In this document: positions 3,551 to 37,119 of the stretch, in pieces
Layout: each line of letters begins with the position of its first letter
Numbering within the stretch: position 1 is the first letter of the stretch
From: Gallionella sp.
Lineage (GTDB): Bacteria; Pseudomonadota; Gammaproteobacteria; Burkholderiales; Gallionellaceae
Assembly (NCBI GenBank): GCA_003134595.1
Contig: PLBS01000093.1
Coordinates: 15,068-52,186 of the forward strand
Direction: 5' to 3'
Length of the DNA: 37,119 nt
Translations under genes and position numbers: made by a program
The notes under the pieces: generated by a model
Told to the model about the DNA's origin: nothing
Databases searched by the model: none
The model's input: only the letters and a program-made list of their open reading frames with translations

Positions 3551-3613
3551 CTGATGAAACTACTAGCCATTCGACTAGGCTATCAAAAGACGATAGCCAA
3601 GTCGCTGGTTATG
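3551..3613 (+). repeat. 63-bp covarying-hairpin element, copy A
   Basis: CTGATGAAACTACTAGCCATTCGACTAGGCTATCAAAAGACGATAGCCAAGTCGCTGGTTATG; inner stem GGCTATC/GATAGCC. Confidence 0.85.
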
Positions 3614-4079: not shown

Positions 4080-4179
4080 GTAGGTTGGGTTACGCGATAT
4101 AACCAGCCGCTTACCCACCGTCTGTTGGCGGGTTAGCGGAGTGGCTAGGGGTCTCATCAAAGCCGCTAACCCAACCTAC
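4080..4179. repeat. Palindromic GTAGGTTGGGTTA repeat hosting a 63-bp element at its apex
   Basis: GTAGGTTGGGTTA (4080-4092) and TAACCCAACCTAC (4167-4179) are perfect 13-bp inverted arms. Confidence 0.75.
4098..4160 (-). repeat. 63-bp covarying-hairpin element, copy D
   Basis: Minus strand TTGATGAGACCCCTAGCCACTCCGCTAACCCGCCAACAGACGGTGGGTAAGCGGCTGGTTATA; same length and architecture with different but complementary stems. Confidence 0.75.
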
Positions 4180-5374: not shown

Positions 5375-7171
5375 ATGATTACCCCCAACCCAACTCAACC
5401 TGCTGCTACAAAACGCTTATCTCCATTGCGGGATCTGTGGCCTTTCCTGCGGCCTCATCGCGGGCGGATCGCGCTGGCTTTCGTGCTGCTATGCCTCGGT
5501 TCCGGCACTATCCTGCTGGTGCCGCTGGCATTTCGCGACTTGATCGATTTCGGTTTCGGGCAACGTGCAAACACAGATGACGGACTGTTGGGAACATCGA
5601 GTTTGAATGGCCATTTCGCATTGCTGTTCGGGCTGGCCAGCTTGTGGGCGCTGACCGTGTCGGCGCGCTTTTATACTGTGAGTTGGGTGGGCGAGCGGGT
5701 CACGGCGGATTTGCGCAGCGCGGTGTATGAACGAGTGCTGGCGCAGTCGCCGCAATTCTTCGAGACATTGCAAACCGGCGAAGTGCTGTCGCGGCTGACC
5801 GGCGACACCACGCTGGTCCAGACCGTGGTTGGCAGCTCCATTTCGATGGGTTTGCGCAGTCTATTCCAGTTTATCGGCGGCATGATCATGCTGGCGGTGA
5901 CCAGCTTTTATTTGTTTTCTTTGAATCTTGGCCTGATGGCATTGCTGGCGCTGCCTATCTTCATCATCGGGCGTAAAGTAAAGAAACTTTCGCGCGAATC
6001 GCAGGACAAGATCGCGGATGCGTCGGCGCTGGCCGGCGAGATCCTCAATGCCGTGCCGACCGTACAAGCCTATACGCAGGAGCGGCATGAAACCAAGCGC
6101 TTCGCGGATCGTGCGGAAGTGAGTTTCGTCACCGCGATTCGGCGCACTCGCGTGCGTGCGGCGCTGACTGCGCTGATCATCACCGCGGTAATGGGCACCA
6201 TCATCTTCGTGCTGTGGGTCGGCGCGAACCAGGTGCATGACGGCAGCATGACCGGCGGGCAACTGGCTTCGTTCGTCCTTTACGCGGCGTTGGTGGCGGG
6301 TGGTGTGGGCACCATGGCGGAAGTGTGGGGTGATGTGATGCGCGCGGCGGGCGCAACCGAGCGTCTGCTGGAACTGCTGCATGCAGAATCCAACATCGCC
6401 GAGGTTTCCGCACCGCAAACACTGCCGCAGCCCAGGCAGGCGGCGATTCGCTTCGAGCAGGTCAGCTTCCGCTACCCGGCGCGTTTGCAAACCGCCGCGC
6501 TGGACGACATCACCTTGGACATCGCGCCCGGCGAAAGCATCGCGCTGGTCGGCCCTTCCGGTGCGGGCAAGACCACCCTGTTCCAATTACTGCTGCGCTT
6601 TTACGATGTGACCAATGGCTGCATCCGCCTTAATGGGCAGGACATCCGCCAACTTTCATTGCGCGATCTTCGCGACAAGATCGCCATCGTGCCGCAAGAC
6701 CCGGTGATCTTCTCGGCCAATGCGCTGGAAAATATCCGTTACGGTCGCCCTGCCGCCAGCGACGCGGAAGTGATAGCCGCCGCAAGAGCGGCGCTGGTGG
6801 ACGAATTCATCAACCGCCTGCCGGATGGCTATCAAACATTTTTGGGCGAACGCGGCACCCGCTTGTCCGGTGGTCAGCGCCAGCGCATCGCCATCGCGCG
6901 GGCGATTTTGAAGAACGCACCGCTGTTGCTGTTGGACGAAGCGACCAGCGCGCTGGATGCCGAATCTGAAATCCTGGTGCAGGAGGGGCTGAACGCCGCC
7001 ATGCAGGGACGAACCACGCTCATCATCGCGCACCGGTTGGCCACCGTGCAGAAGGTTAACCGCATCGTGGTGTTGGAACACGGGCGCATCGTCGAAACCG
7101 GAACCCCGGAAGATTTGCGCAAACAGAGCGGACTTTACGCTCGGCTGGCGCGTTTGCAATTTGATGTTTGA
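5375..7171 (+). CDS. ABC exporter, fused permease/ATPase (MsbA/LipA-export type)
   Basis: ABC membrane domain; Walker A GPSGAGKTT; signature LSGGQRQRIAIARA; Walker B LLLLDEATSALD. Confidence 0.93.
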   Translation: MITPNPTQPAATKRLSPLRDLWPFLRPHRGRIALAFVLLCLGSGTILLVPLAFRDLIDFGFGQRANTDDGLLGTSSLNGHFALLFGLASLWALTVSARFYTVSWVGERVTADLRSAVYERVLAQSPQFFETLQTGEVLSRLTGDTTLVQTVVGSSISMGLRSLFQFIGGMIMLAVTSFYLFSLNLGLMALLALPIFIIGRKVKKLSRESQDKIADASALAGEILNAVPTVQAYTQERHETKRFADRAEVSFVTAIRRTRVRAALTALIITAVMGTIIFVLWVGANQVHDGSMTGGQLASFVLYAALVAGGVGTMAEVWGDVMRAAGATERLLELLHAESNIAEVSAPQTLPQPRQAAIRFEQVSFRYPARLQTAALDDITLDIAPGESIALVGPSGAGKTTLFQLLLRFYDVTNGCIRLNGQDIRQLSLRDLRDKIAIVPQDPVIFSANALENIRYGRPAASDAEVIAAARAALVDEFINRLPDGYQTFLGERGTRLSGGQRQRIAIARAILKNAPLLLLDEATSALDAESEILVQEGLNAAMQGRTTLIIAHRLATVQKVNRIVVLEHGRIVETGTPEDLRKQSGLYARLARLQFDV

Positions 7172-14067: not shown

Positions 14068-14199
14068 CTGATGAAACTAATGATACGACTACTAGCCATC
14101 TGACTGATACAACTACTGGTGAAACTACTAGCCATCTGACTAAGTTGGCAAACCACGCCAACTAAGTCATTGGTTATAGCCATTCCACTAGGCTGCCAG
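14068..14199 (+). repeat. Cluster of 63-bp element: 5' partial, full copy B (14116-14178), half-hairpin 3' partial
   Basis: Full: CTGGTGAAACTACTAGCCATCTGACTAAGTTGGCAAACCACGCCAACTAAGTCATTGGTTATA; ACTACTAGCCATCTGACT is duplicated upstream; TAGCCATTCCACTAGGCTGCCAG follows. Confidence 0.8.
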
Positions 14200-14223: not shown

Positions 14224-15162
14224 CTACGGGAGCATCCTGGCTAAGCGAAACCCGAAGATGCTGAAACGGAGCACAGGCTTGTTGCTGTTACGTATAGCCG
14301 CGCGCACGTTCCGTGGTCCGTTGTTCCACGAACCGCCGCGAAGCACGCGCTTCGCGCCATCCCCTTGCCAGGCACTGCCGTCAGCCGGGGCGCCCTTATA
14401 GCTGTCGTGATAACTGTCCTCAGTCCATTCCCACACGTTCCCCAGCATGTCATCCAGTCCGAATGCATTGGCCTTGAAGCTGCCTACCGGAGCGGTATAG
14501 GCAAAACCATCCGTGCAGTTATGTACCGACCAGGATGATGCATTAAGTATCCCTGCTTGTGCTGTCTTGTCCGCAGCATTCGCATATCCGCAAGCATCAT
14601 CAGGGTTGCCCCCCCAGTAACGTGCGGTGCCGGTGTTGCCACGAGCGGAGTATTCCCATTCAGCCTCTGTTGGCAGACGGTATTGTTTGCCTGTCTTGCG
14701 TGACATCCATTTCGCATAGGCTTTGGCATCGTTCCAGTTGATACAGGCGACAGGGTGTTTGTCGTCTTGTGGGTAGCCGGGTTTGCTCCAGCTGCCACTG
14801 CGCTCTTCAAATTTACCGCCTTCAAGCGTCCAGCATTTGTCGCCGGTGCTGTAGTTGGTATTTTTCACGAATGCCGCAAACTGGCCTCGGGTGATCTCGG
14901 TCTTGCCCAGAGCGAAGGCAGCAACATTGACCCGATGCACAGGGCCTTCGTCGTGATCCCGCCCGGCCTCAGAACCGGGCGAGCCCATGTCAAAGCTCCC
15001 CGAAGGGATGACCACCATCTCTGGACAGCTTGGACAGTCGCGGAAGATATTGCCTGCTTTGCCCTGCTTGGCGGCTTGGGCTTGGGTAGGCATCCACATC
15101 AAACAGAATGTGGCGATGATGAGACCGAGTAGGTTGCGCATTGGGGCTTGCCTCATTTTCAT
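14224..15162 (-). CDS. SUMF1/formylglycine-generating-enzyme-fold protein, exported
   Basis: MVVIPSGSFDMGSPGSE...YRLPTEAEWEYSARG...DMLGNVWEWTEDSY...RVLRGGSWNNGPRNVRAAIRN...FGFRLAR. Confidence 0.92.
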   Translation of the reverse strand: MKMRQAPMRNLLGLIIATFCLMWMPTQAQAAKQGKAGNIFRDCPSCPEMVVIPSGSFDMGSPGSEAGRDHDEGPVHRVNVAAFALGKTEITRGQFAAFVKNTNYSTGDKCWTLEGGKFEERSGSWSKPGYPQDDKHPVACINWNDAKAYAKWMSRKTGKQYRLPTEAEWEYSARGNTGTARYWGGNPDDACGYANAADKTAQAGILNASSWSVHNCTDGFAYTAPVGSFKANAFGLDDMLGNVWEWTEDSYHDSYKGAPADGSAWQGDGAKRVLRGGSWNNGPRNVRAAIRNSNKPVLRFSIFGFRLARMLP

Positions 15163-15439: not shown

Positions 15440-16810
15440 CTAACACCCCTTGAATTTATTAGCAGTGCATTTTCTGGCCAGTTCCTGTGCTTGGGCTATT
15501 TGCTGTGCAGCCATTTTCTCTGCTATTGAATCGCGAAATTCAGTGCGTTTCTTCTGGTCTTCGCTAACAGTTGTATTTGTAACAGCTATGTTTGTCCACA
15601 TATGCGCCAACACGTAATCTTGCGGTACACCTTGTCCGAGGTAATACATCCACCCAAGAGAGGATTGTGCGGTTGCATCACCTTGTTCTGCTGCCAGTCG
15701 ATACCACTTTGCCGCTTCCTGGTAATCTTGAGGAATACCTTGCCCTGAGTTATACATATATCCAAGAGAGTATTGAGCTAAAGCATCACCCTGTTCCGCC
15801 GCCAGTCGAAACCACTTCGCTGCTTCCTTGTAATCTTGAGGAACACCCTTTCCGTTTTCATACATAAACCCAAGGCTGAATTGTAGATAAGCATCACCCT
15901 GTTCCGCTGCCAGTCGATACCACTTCACAGCCTCTTTGTAATCTTGATGAACACCTTGCCCTAAGTCATACATCAACCCAAATTTGACTTGTGCAACAGC
16001 ATTACCATGCTCTGCTGCCAGTTGATACCACTTCACTGCTTCCTTGTAATCTTGAGGAACACCCTTTCCGTTTTCATACATAAACCCAAGGCTGGTTTGT
16101 GCTTTAGCATCATCCTGTTCCGCTGCCAGTCGATACCACTTCATAGCCTCTTTGTAATCTTGAGGAACACCTTGCCCTAAGTCATACATAAACCCAAGGT
16201 TGAATTGTGCAACAGCATTACCTTGCTCTGCTGCCAGTTGATACCACTTCACTGCTTCTTCGTAATCTTGAGGAACATCCTTTTCGTTTTTATACATAAA
16301 CCCAAGGCTGGTTTGTGCTTTAGCATTACCCTGTTTCGCTGCCAGTCGATACCACTTCACTGCTTCTTTGTAATCTTGAGGAACACCCTTTCCGTTTTCA
16401 TACATAAACCCAAGGTTGACTTGTGCAACAGCATTACCTTGCTCTGCTGCCAGTCGAAACCACTTCACTGCTTCTTTGTAATCTTGAGGAACACCCTTTC
16501 CGTTTTCATATATAAACCCAAGGTTGACTTGTGCAAAAGCATTACCTTGCTCTGCTGCCAGTTGGTACCACTTCACTGCCTCTTTGTAATCTTGAGGAAC
16601 ACCTTGTCCATTGTCATACATAATCCCAAGGTCGAATTGGGCGAAAGCATTACCCTGCTCTGCCAGCGGCCTGAGTAACTTTGCTGCTTTTGCATAATCT
16701 TTTTCATGGTAGGCACGTTCTGCATCTGATAACGAATCGGCAACTGCCTGACCAGTCAACGCAAACAAACACACACAAACCAACAACACCTGTTTTAGCA
16801 ACTTATGCAT
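15440..16810 (-). CDS. Sel1-like repeat (SLR/TPR) exported protein
   Basis: Signal peptide plus ten 36-aa Sel1 repeats (AEQGNAxAQxxLGxMYxxGxGVPQDYKEAVKWYxLA). Confidence 0.95.
   Translation of the reverse strand: MHKLLKQVLLVCVCLFALTGQAVADSLSDAERAYHEKDYAKAAKLLRPLAEQGNAFAQFDLGIMYDNGQGVPQDYKEAVKWYQLAAEQGNAFAQVNLGFIYENGKGVPQDYKEAVKWFRLAAEQGNAVAQVNLGFMYENGKGVPQDYKEAVKWYRLAAKQGNAKAQTSLGFMYKNEKDVPQDYEEAVKWYQLAAEQGNAVAQFNLGFMYDLGQGVPQDYKEAMKWYRLAAEQDDAKAQTSLGFMYENGKGVPQDYKEAVKWYQLAAEHGNAVAQVKFGLMYDLGQGVHQDYKEAVKWYRLAAEQGDAYLQFSLGFMYENGKGVPQDYKEAAKWFRLAAEQGDALAQYSLGYMYNSGQGIPQDYQEAAKWYRLAAEQGDATAQSSLGWMYYLGQGVPQDYVLAHMWTNIAVTNTTVSEDQKKRTEFRDSIAEKMAAQQIAQAQELARKCTANKFKGC
15584..16663 (-). repeat. 10 x 108-bp tandem repeat array (Sel1 repeats)
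   Basis: Near-identical DNA units such as CACTTCACTGCTTCTTTGTAATCTTGAGGAACACC recurring every 108 bp. Confidence 0.9.
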
Positions 16811-24700: not shown

Positions 24701-25414
24701 ATGAAAACCACATTGATTACGGGTGCCAACCGCGGGATCGGACTGGAGTTTTGCAGGCAATATGCCGCAGATGGCTGGCGTGTTTTAGCTTGTAGTCGCC
24801 ACCCTGAAAAACCCCATCTTGGAACATCGGATGCGCTCAACAAACTGGCGGCTCAATATCCTGAACTGATAAAAATGCATGCCCTTGATGTCGCTGACCA
24901 TGCGCAAATCGAGCGCTTGGCGCAGGTGCTGGCTAATGAATCCATTGACCTGCTCATTAACAACGCCGGCATCTATCCTGATTCTGATAAAAGAGGTTTT
25001 GGCCATACCGATTATGCGGAATGGACGCGGGCATTTCGCATCAATACCATGGCGCTACTCAAGATGGCCGAGACATTTGCCACACAAATTGCTCGCAGCA
25101 AGCAAAAAACCATCGTGACCATCACCAGCAAAATGGGCAGCATTGCGGACAATAGCGGAGGCGGTAATTACCTTTATCGCTCCAGCAAAGCGGCGGTTAA
25201 TATGGTTGTGAAGAGTCTTGCAATTGACCTGAAGCCGATTGGAATCACTGCAATAGTATTCCATCCGGGTTGGGTCAAGACTGATATGGGTGGGCCGAAC
25301 GCATTGATCTCCGCAGAACAAAGCGTATCTGGCATACGGCAAGTGATCAGCAGCCTCACCCTGGCCGACTCCGGGAAATTCTTTGGTTATGACGGCCAGG
25401 TGATTCCTTGGTAA
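24701..25414 (+). CDS. SDR family oxidoreductase
   Basis: TLITGANRGIGLEFCRQYAADGW; NNAGIYP; YRSSKAAVNMV. Confidence 0.93.
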   Translation: MKTTLITGANRGIGLEFCRQYAADGWRVLACSRHPEKPHLGTSDALNKLAAQYPELIKMHALDVADHAQIERLAQVLANESIDLLINNAGIYPDSDKRGFGHTDYAEWTRAFRINTMALLKMAETFATQIARSKQKTIVTITSKMGSIADNSGGGNYLYRSSKAAVNMVVKSLAIDLKPIGITAIVFHPGWVKTDMGGPNALISAEQSVSGIRQVISSLTLADSGKFFGYDGQVIPW

Positions 25415-25468
25415 TCACGCCCGAATTCTGCAATCCTGTTTTTATGAAGTTAGTGACAGCAGGCGTAT
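25389..25468 (+). repeat. ~80-bp direct repeat, left copy (3' end of SDR gene)
   Basis: ATGACGGCCAGGTGATTCCTTGGTAATCACGCCCGAATTCTGCAATCCTGTTTTTATGAAGTTAGTGACAGCAGGCGTAT; recurs at 29744-29823. Confidence 0.85.
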
Positions 25469-29743: not shown

Positions 29744-29823
29744 ATGACGGTCAGATGACTCCCTGGTAATCACGCCCGAATTCTGCAATCCTGATTTGTG
29801 AAGTTGCTGACAGCAGGCGTATG
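29744..29823 (+). repeat. ~80-bp direct repeat, right copy (SDR C-terminal remnant)
   Basis: ATGACGGTCAGATGACTCCCTGGTAATCACGCCCGAATTCTGCAATCCTGATTTGTGAAGTTGCTGACAGCAGGCGTAT; encodes DDGQMTPW* vs YDGQVIPW* in the SDR. Confidence 0.85.
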
Positions 29824-30383: not shown

Positions 30384-30469
30384 GTAGGTTGGGTGGAGCA
30401 TAGCGATACCCAACAAAAATTTCCGACAACATCAAAACGATGGGTATCGCTACGCTCCACCCATCCTAC
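30384..30469. repeat. Inverted-repeat element GTAGGTTGGGTGGAGC...
   Basis: GTAGGTTGGGTGGAGCATAGCGATACCCAAC / GATGGGTATCGCTACGCTCCACCCATCCTAC, ~31-bp arms. Confidence 0.85.
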
Positions 30470-31170: not shown

Positions 31171-31355
31171 TCGTCATTCCCGCGCATAACCAGCGACTTT
31201 GCTGGCGTTGTTTGCCAGCTTAGTCGAATGGCTAGTAGTTTCATCAGGCGGGAATCCAGCAAATCAAAAATTCTGCGCAGCAGACAAAACAAAAATGTCG
31301 TCCCGCCATGCGGGGATCGTCAAATTGACTGGATTCCCGCTTTCGCGGGAATGAC
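31171..31355. repeat. Composite palindromic repeat (GTCATTCCCGCG family), left palindrome interrupted by a 63-bp element
   Basis: TCGTCATTCCCGCG...GCGGGAATCCAG ... CTGGATTCCCGCTTTCGCGGGAATGACG. Confidence 0.8.
31185..31247 (-). repeat. 63-bp covarying-hairpin element, copy C
   Basis: Minus strand CTGATGAAACTACTAGCCATTCGACTAAGCTGGCAAACAACGCCAGCAAAGTCGCTGGTTATG. Confidence 0.85.
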
Positions 31356-31374
31356 GGAAGCACATTGATATTCA

Positions 31375-32745: not shown

Positions 32746-32854
32746 TGCTGCGTTGCATAAAAAATATCTTGCTTACATATAACCCATATGCGGCGCGGCG
32801 AAATTTTTTCCGCGTCTTGCATTTGGGCGAACTCTGAATTTTTAGAGGTTCCCT
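32746..32854 (-). repeat. ~110-bp dispersed repeat, copy 1
   Basis: Minus strand AGGGAACCTCTAAAAATTCAGAGTTCGCCCAAATGCAAGACGCGGAAAAAATTTCGCCGCGCCGCATATG...; inverted copy at 37005-37110. Confidence 0.9.
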
Positions 32855-36985: not shown

Positions 36986-37004
36986 GCCGTTCATGGAGCC
37001 TGAA

Positions 37005-37110
37005 GGGAGCCTCTAAAAATTCAGAGTTCGCCCAAATGCAAGGCGCGGAAAAAATTCCGCCGCGCCGCATATGATCGATATGTAAGCAAGGAATTTTTTT
37101 CGCAACGCAG
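37005..37110 (+). repeat. ~110-bp dispersed repeat, copy 2
   Basis: GGGAGCCTCTAAAAATTCAGAGTTCGCCCAAATGCAAGGCGCGGAAAAAATTCCGCCGCGCCGCATATG...GCAACGCAG; inverse of 32746-32854. Confidence 0.9.
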
Positions 37111-37119
37111 CATAACCAG

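Follow-up and report, generated by a model that had tools for sequence, protein, structure and literature searches.

A dispersed 60-bp hairpin element in the loop of a REP palindrome of Gallionella, a candidate for mobility as single-stranded DNA

Introduction

How does a repeated sequence come to stand inside a palindrome whose two arms are left whole? The ruvA-ruvC spacer of a Gallionella sp. contig (PLBS01000093.1) raises this question. We analysed positions 15,068 to 52,186 of the contig, a stretch of 37,119 nucleotides here called the window. At window positions 31172-31259 lies an interrupted palindrome of the type CGTC-ATTCCCGC-loop-GCGGGAAT-CCAG, and the interrupter is a repeated 60-bp hairpin element. 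An earlier, sequence-only reading had recognised a repeated element between intact palindrome arms, which our analysis confirms in the sequence, and had proposed two origins, targeting of a hairpin tip or cruciform loop and template switching at a hairpin.

Results

The interrupted palindrome is of a described type. CGTC-1 REPs (dRS3 in Neisseria) have a CGTC tag, an 8-bp stem starting with AT, a 4-nt loop and a CCA tail, and mostly occur as facing dimers (PMC3733652). The target palindrome, CGTC-ATTCCCGC-GCAG-GCGGGAAT-CCA, shows every one of these features: tag, stem, loop, tail and facing pairs. Its left half, CGTCATTCCCGC followed by the loop bases GCA, occupies 31172-31186 on the plus strand, and its right half, the loop base G followed by GCGGGAATCCAG, occupies 31247-31259 on the same strand. 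Facing it at 31329-31356 is an uninterrupted partner that reads CGTCATTCCCGCGAAAGCGGGAATCCAG on the minus strand. All three were delineated from the sequence and from intact genomic copies, the left half also from the published REP type (PMC3733652). The two GTCATTCCCGCG copies that had drawn attention to the locus are both exact, at 31173-31184 (plus) and 31344-31355 (minus), against a chance expectation of 0.18 with one mismatch allowed.

A collection of such palindromes across the genome, as the sequence-only reading had proposed, yielded 32 intact copies with exactly the target arms. Their loops are CAG in 15, AAG in 12, AAA in three, and CAT and TAG in one each, and the CAG-loop copies represent the empty form of the filled site. 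Because 24 of the 32 also stand in facing pairs, the partner, earlier described as an intact control alongside the interruption, is indeed intact but is the ordinary facing member of a REP dimer rather than a special control. A further palindrome, GTAGGTTGGGTGGAGC...GCTCCACCCATCCTAC, lies at 30384-30469 and carries no insertion.

The element spans 31187-31246, reading TAACC...CATCA on the plus strand, with the hairpin model strand TGATG...TGGTTA on the minus strand, and matches a covariance model of the family with 86.2 bits. Exact lossless empty sites set its junctions at A|TAACC and CATCA|G. Rejoining its flanks gives GTCATTCCCGCGCA|GGCGGGAATCCAG, with a GCAG loop, which occurs verbatim 15 times in the window's genome; the element thus entered the GCAG loop between A and G, and no target bases were replaced. 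The mobile unit is 60 bp, and the three extra bases of the 63-bp unit first described (CA and G) are target loop. Nor was an AAA loop replaced, as had been thought, since the CAG-loop version is the exact lossless empty site of the filled copy. Among 152 parsed insertions, an exact, uninterrupted 26-mer of the joined flanks was found elsewhere for 22, and a duplication was needed in none. Matches with one extra base were seen for two of the 152, at least one owing to our script's call of the tail end, and a single A is ambiguous at the junction, since A is also the last base of the element.

Two other interpretations of these ends were dropped. Duplication of a CA dinucleotide does not hold, as the left flank is GA as often as CA and no duplicated pair was found. 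Integron attC sites end in RYYYAAC ... GTTRRRY; an attC identity was ruled out by the aligned element copies, which end TAACC...CATCA. A cluster of copies in G058 was likewise rejected as an integron array, the copies sitting in another dispersed repeat, GTCATTGCGA...TGGCAATCC.

Empty and filled apices, the comparison that the earlier reading had suggested, both occur at orthologous ruvA-ruvC sites. The spacers of G050 and G012 align with the window through GTCAT(T/A)CCCGCG and continue into an uninterrupted palindrome, giving an empty apex with an alignable left flank, and G065 likewise has a palindrome in this spacer. The G041 spacer holds another element copy in a different repeat, CGTTCGCCCTGA|GCTTGTCGAAGGG, whose empty form is present in G062. 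On the simplest reading of these alignments, the palindrome would have been there first and the element would have arrived later. A palindrome could stall replication, and to that extent template switching at a stalled hairpin might have made the composite. However, across many genomes, dozens of unrelated targets hold the element without loss and with identical ends, and these empty and filled pairs refute template switching as a general account; we reject it as extremely improbable.

There are four element copies in the window, at 3552-3611, 4100-4159, 14117-14176 and 31187-31246, and only those at 4100 and 31187 are centred in palindromes. The second and fourth copies of our numbering (3552-3611, 89.3 bits, and 14117-14176, 78.5 bits, both by the covariance model) have the TAACC orientation on the minus strand. 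The third (4100-4159, plus strand, 69.4 bits) is centred in the palindrome ATGTAGGTTGGGTTA...TAACCCAACCTACAT, with an inverted-arm score of 15.5 for the arms around it (L027). Adjoining the fourth, at 14068-14116 on the minus strand, are reiterated GTAGTTTCATCA-like tail units that form a 36-nt direct repeat.

The window also contains a 108-bp unit in nine tandem copies, 60-80% alike (15614-16777), and a dispersed repeat of roughly 80 bp, distinct from the hairpin element, in two copies that are about 90% alike (25389-25468 and 29744-29822). Inverted repeats of 109 nt, 90% complementary and 4.1 kb apart (32746-32854 and 37004-37112), surround a ParA-like ORF and possibly form a mobile unit with it.

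The element belongs to a large family. By DNA search, the window's genome alone has more than 40 copies. A covariance model built on 22 diverse copies gave matches in 72 of 76 genomes of the genus and, in a sample of 400 genomes from the order, in 28. Copy number is often at least 70 per genome; up to 72 candidates were scored in each, and the counts of 72 that were often reached are lower bounds. Among records with a name, the element is seen in Gallionella, Sideroxydans, Ferrigenium and related bins. Of the copies tested, about 60% fall outside ORFs of at least 300 nt, and such sequence makes up 14.5% by a similar mask. These copies constitute a dispersed family with fixed asymmetric ends, inserted without loss mostly at A|G, which reads C|T on the opposite strand. 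No publication on palindromic repeats of Gallionella was found by title and abstract words; the family is apparently undescribed so far, a provisional statement because the literature check rested on such words.

Outside the family, near-identical copies (L241-L250) in G198 are embedded in larger repeats of about 200 bp, and near-identical copies L251-L256 (G162, G260) also lie in a larger repeat, bounded by terminal inverted repeats of the CAGTTGAACGC type. Recent transposition was rejected for the identical copies in G198 and G162: longer flanks are common to them, and the hairpin was therefore carried within larger repeats. A single contig from a viral collection (L185) has one element copy, at 5596-5655, and may be host DNA.

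The element folds into one extended hairpin interrupted by two small internal loops. The basal stem is TAGCCA/TGGTTA and the middle stem CGACT/AGTCG, followed by a variable apical stem and an A-rich loop; a divergent copy, L041, has its basal stem rewritten as TAAGTA/TACTTA. After the stem comes a 12-nt GTAGTTTCATCA-like tail, which is reiterated in the window at 14068-14116 as well as in L070 and L084. The stem-loop is maintained by compensatory changes: 93.4% of cells are paired, double-sided changes number 51 against 15.7 in shuffles, a value reached by 0 of 500 shuffles, and the signal collapses when the partners are slid. A second class of elements has the tail TGCAAAGC instead of GTAGTTTCATCA and is housed in GGGTTAGCGCAGCG-type palindromes, with tandem joining possible (L084 4984-5218; L090 564-611; L130; L221 6873-6920; L304).

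Such strong covariation would also be expected of an element that acts as RNA, either as the gene of a structured RNA or within an mRNA, and that spread at the RNA level or by another route while selection on the RNA kept its fold. The basal pair, invariably G-U on the model strand and A-C on its complement, fits this reading, as does a lean of the model strand towards the sense of the flanking genes (36:22), although the lean, for which a crude ORF caller was used, does not reach significance (p=0.087). Against an RNA stand the many unrelated contexts of the element, the occurrence of neighbouring copies in opposite orientation as little as 12-70 bp apart, and an Rfam search that gave no match at gathering or relaxed thresholds. 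We judge an RNA origin of the fold distinctly unlikely.

What, then, draws the element to its targets? By far the strongest signal is in the sequence: 127 of the 152 junctions are A|G, a dinucleotide step that makes up about 5% of the background, in a purine-rich context of roughly G N S A | G R G G. We compared joined targets with non-coding control sites of the same loci, non-coding being defined by a crude ORF mask. The junction falls within a hairpin with a stem of at least 6 bp in 44 of 152 insertions (29%). For motif-matched sites the figure is 14% (odds ratio 2.5, p=5e-5), and for non-coding control sites and A|G sites it is 8% each. Loops receive 8.6-10.9% of insertions, compared with 3.7% at motif-matched non-coding sites (p=0.007-0.03). 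By a separate score, inverted arms surround 13.8% of junctions versus 7.0% of motif-matched sites (p=0.018), and folding energies point in the same direction as the hairpin excess. Many of the hairpin insertions are in the 3' arm, for example CCCGCTTGCGGGA|GAGGG, and some insertions lie in palindrome-free, unstructured repeats, for example GAGGACA|GAGGACAG.

These excesses argue for a mobilising enzyme that recognises hairpin tips or cruciform loops. Yet about 70% of insertions lie outside hairpins with stems of at least 6 bp, and when similar targets are collapsed the hairpin excess falls to 20 of 92 versus 14% (p=0.08) and that of the inverted arms is not significant. With the A|G preference so much stronger, we regard structure-specific insertion as rather unlikely. 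For the family as a whole, the A|G sequence preference is strong and the hairpin preference modest, partly a composition-driven by-product. The sequence-only proposal of targeting at hairpin tips or cruciform loops therefore stands in so far as the element did insert into a pre-existing palindrome here, as the empty spacers and the lossless sites genome-wide indicate, but does not extend to a general rule, the excess in loops being small. The surplus of palindromes among the targets would come mainly from the presence of the purine-rich A|G site in intergenic repeat hairpins.

HUH/Y1 enzymes that transpose single-stranded DNA would be expected to leave lossless insertions, asymmetric ends and a folded strand that is conserved, and on these grounds we infer such a route. 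The element would move as single-stranded DNA and be recognised through its hairpin, and the mobiliser would be an HUH/Y1-type enzyme, similar to IS200/IS605 or REP transposases, that joins the element at CT on the hairpin strand. Cleavage at CT beside their own hairpin has been reported for TnpAREP enzymes (PMC8266576), and the hairpin-strand junction of the element, CT|GATG or C|TGATG, matches this site. On balance we lean towards a non-autonomous mobile hairpin of the iron-oxidising Gallionellaceae, inserted in the loop of a CGTC-1-type REP and moved in this manner.

The search did not find the enzyme. Copy number and Y1 gene count correlate weakly across 38 near-complete genomes (rho 0.43, p=0.007), which general mobile-element load could explain. 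No Y1 match is present in the element-bearing genomes G056 (finished, 30 copies), G020 (71 copies, 99% complete), G053, G058 and G064. Of 30 Y1 loci scanned, two have one element copy each and none is flanked on both sides. The RAYT-type genes of the genus have flanking repeats of their own that differ from the element, and the ends of the Y1 loci differ too. Inverted repeats such as GGGGACAGACCACGG stand on both sides of the RAYT-type genes (about 245 aa) at L048-L055, an arrangement that matches the TIR-flanked RAYT genes described previously (PMC3733652). Orientation relative to replication was scored in G056 (20/29, p=0.06) and G043 (16/33, p=1.0), with G007 left out for its noisy skew; as the first is borderline and the second flat (combined p=0.25), we claim no replication-strand bias.

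Conventional transposons offer another source for the element, and ISs that insert into REPs have been reported (PMC1525189). A miniature derivative of IS110/IS1111 or of another such transposon nevertheless appears very unlikely: the window's genome has no IS110 genes, nor have the element-rich G056, G007, G079 and G065, no element copy was found near 30 IS110 loci, and the element lacks both terminal inverted repeats and target duplication. It is also conceivable, though we think it improbable, that these mobile DNA hairpins are recognised mainly by their folded shape, by an enzyme outside Y1 and IS110 that prefers single-stranded loops and the 3' arms of palindromes. If that were true, the loops and 3' arms of REPs and other palindromes would be preferred landing sites.

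Discussion

The ruvA-ruvC locus leads to an abundant mobile hairpin that almost all genomes of a single genus carry. Its ends are sharp, its empty and filled pairs are numerous, its fold covaries strongly, and no resident enzyme explains it. The element makes the spread of REP-like repeats directly testable, and its family does the same for whether shape or sequence draws insertions to palindromes.

Several known systems share some of these features. Like MITEs (RUP, ERIC, NEMIS and the like), the element is small, non-coding, dispersed and structured, but it has neither the terminal inverted repeats nor the target-site duplication of classical MITEs, its ends being TAACC...CATCA. With IS200/IS605-type (Y1 HUH) elements it shares asymmetric ends, insertion without target duplication and a predicted recognition through the hairpin, and it inserts losslessly at a short fixed site (22 empty sites; A|G in 127/152). 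It differs in having a single hairpin where those elements have two, one per end, no encoded enzyme and no demonstrated lagging-strand bias, and no matching Y1 transposase with related ends was found in the same genomes.

Insertion into palindromes has precedents, since both REPs within palindromes and ISs in REPs have been reported. REP-type repeats lie inside palindromes in A. variabilis (GTAG-15), T. roseum (GTAG-23) and H. neapolitanus (CGTC-1 dimers) (PMC3733652). The ISs ISPsy8, ISPa11, ISPpu9, ISPpu10, ISRm22 and ISRm19 insert into REPs (PMC1525189). For these ISs, as for the element, REP palindromes are landing sites; they are, however, full-size, carry transposase genes and use one REP sequence each, whereas the 60-bp element has many unrelated targets.

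REPs of the GTAG superfamily, associated with RAYT/TnpAREP (PMC3733652, PMC8266576), resemble the element as short, non-coding intergenic hairpins of high copy number with conserved stem irregularities. They measure 20-40 bp, compared with 60 bp and a separate 12-nt tail here, and they have GTAG 5' of the stem and flanking RAYT genes, both of which the element lacks. Directly 5' of its stem, where an unpaired GTAG would be placed, its hairpin strand has CTAC or CAAC; GTWG is confined to the opposite strand, 3' of the stem, and is variable there (GTAG, GTTG, GTCG, GTGG). CGTC-1 REPs and Neisseria dRS3 are of the same type as the host site, and the inserted 60-bp element is not of that type. REP-like mobile hairpins are themselves already known, and the element is apparently a new family akin to them.
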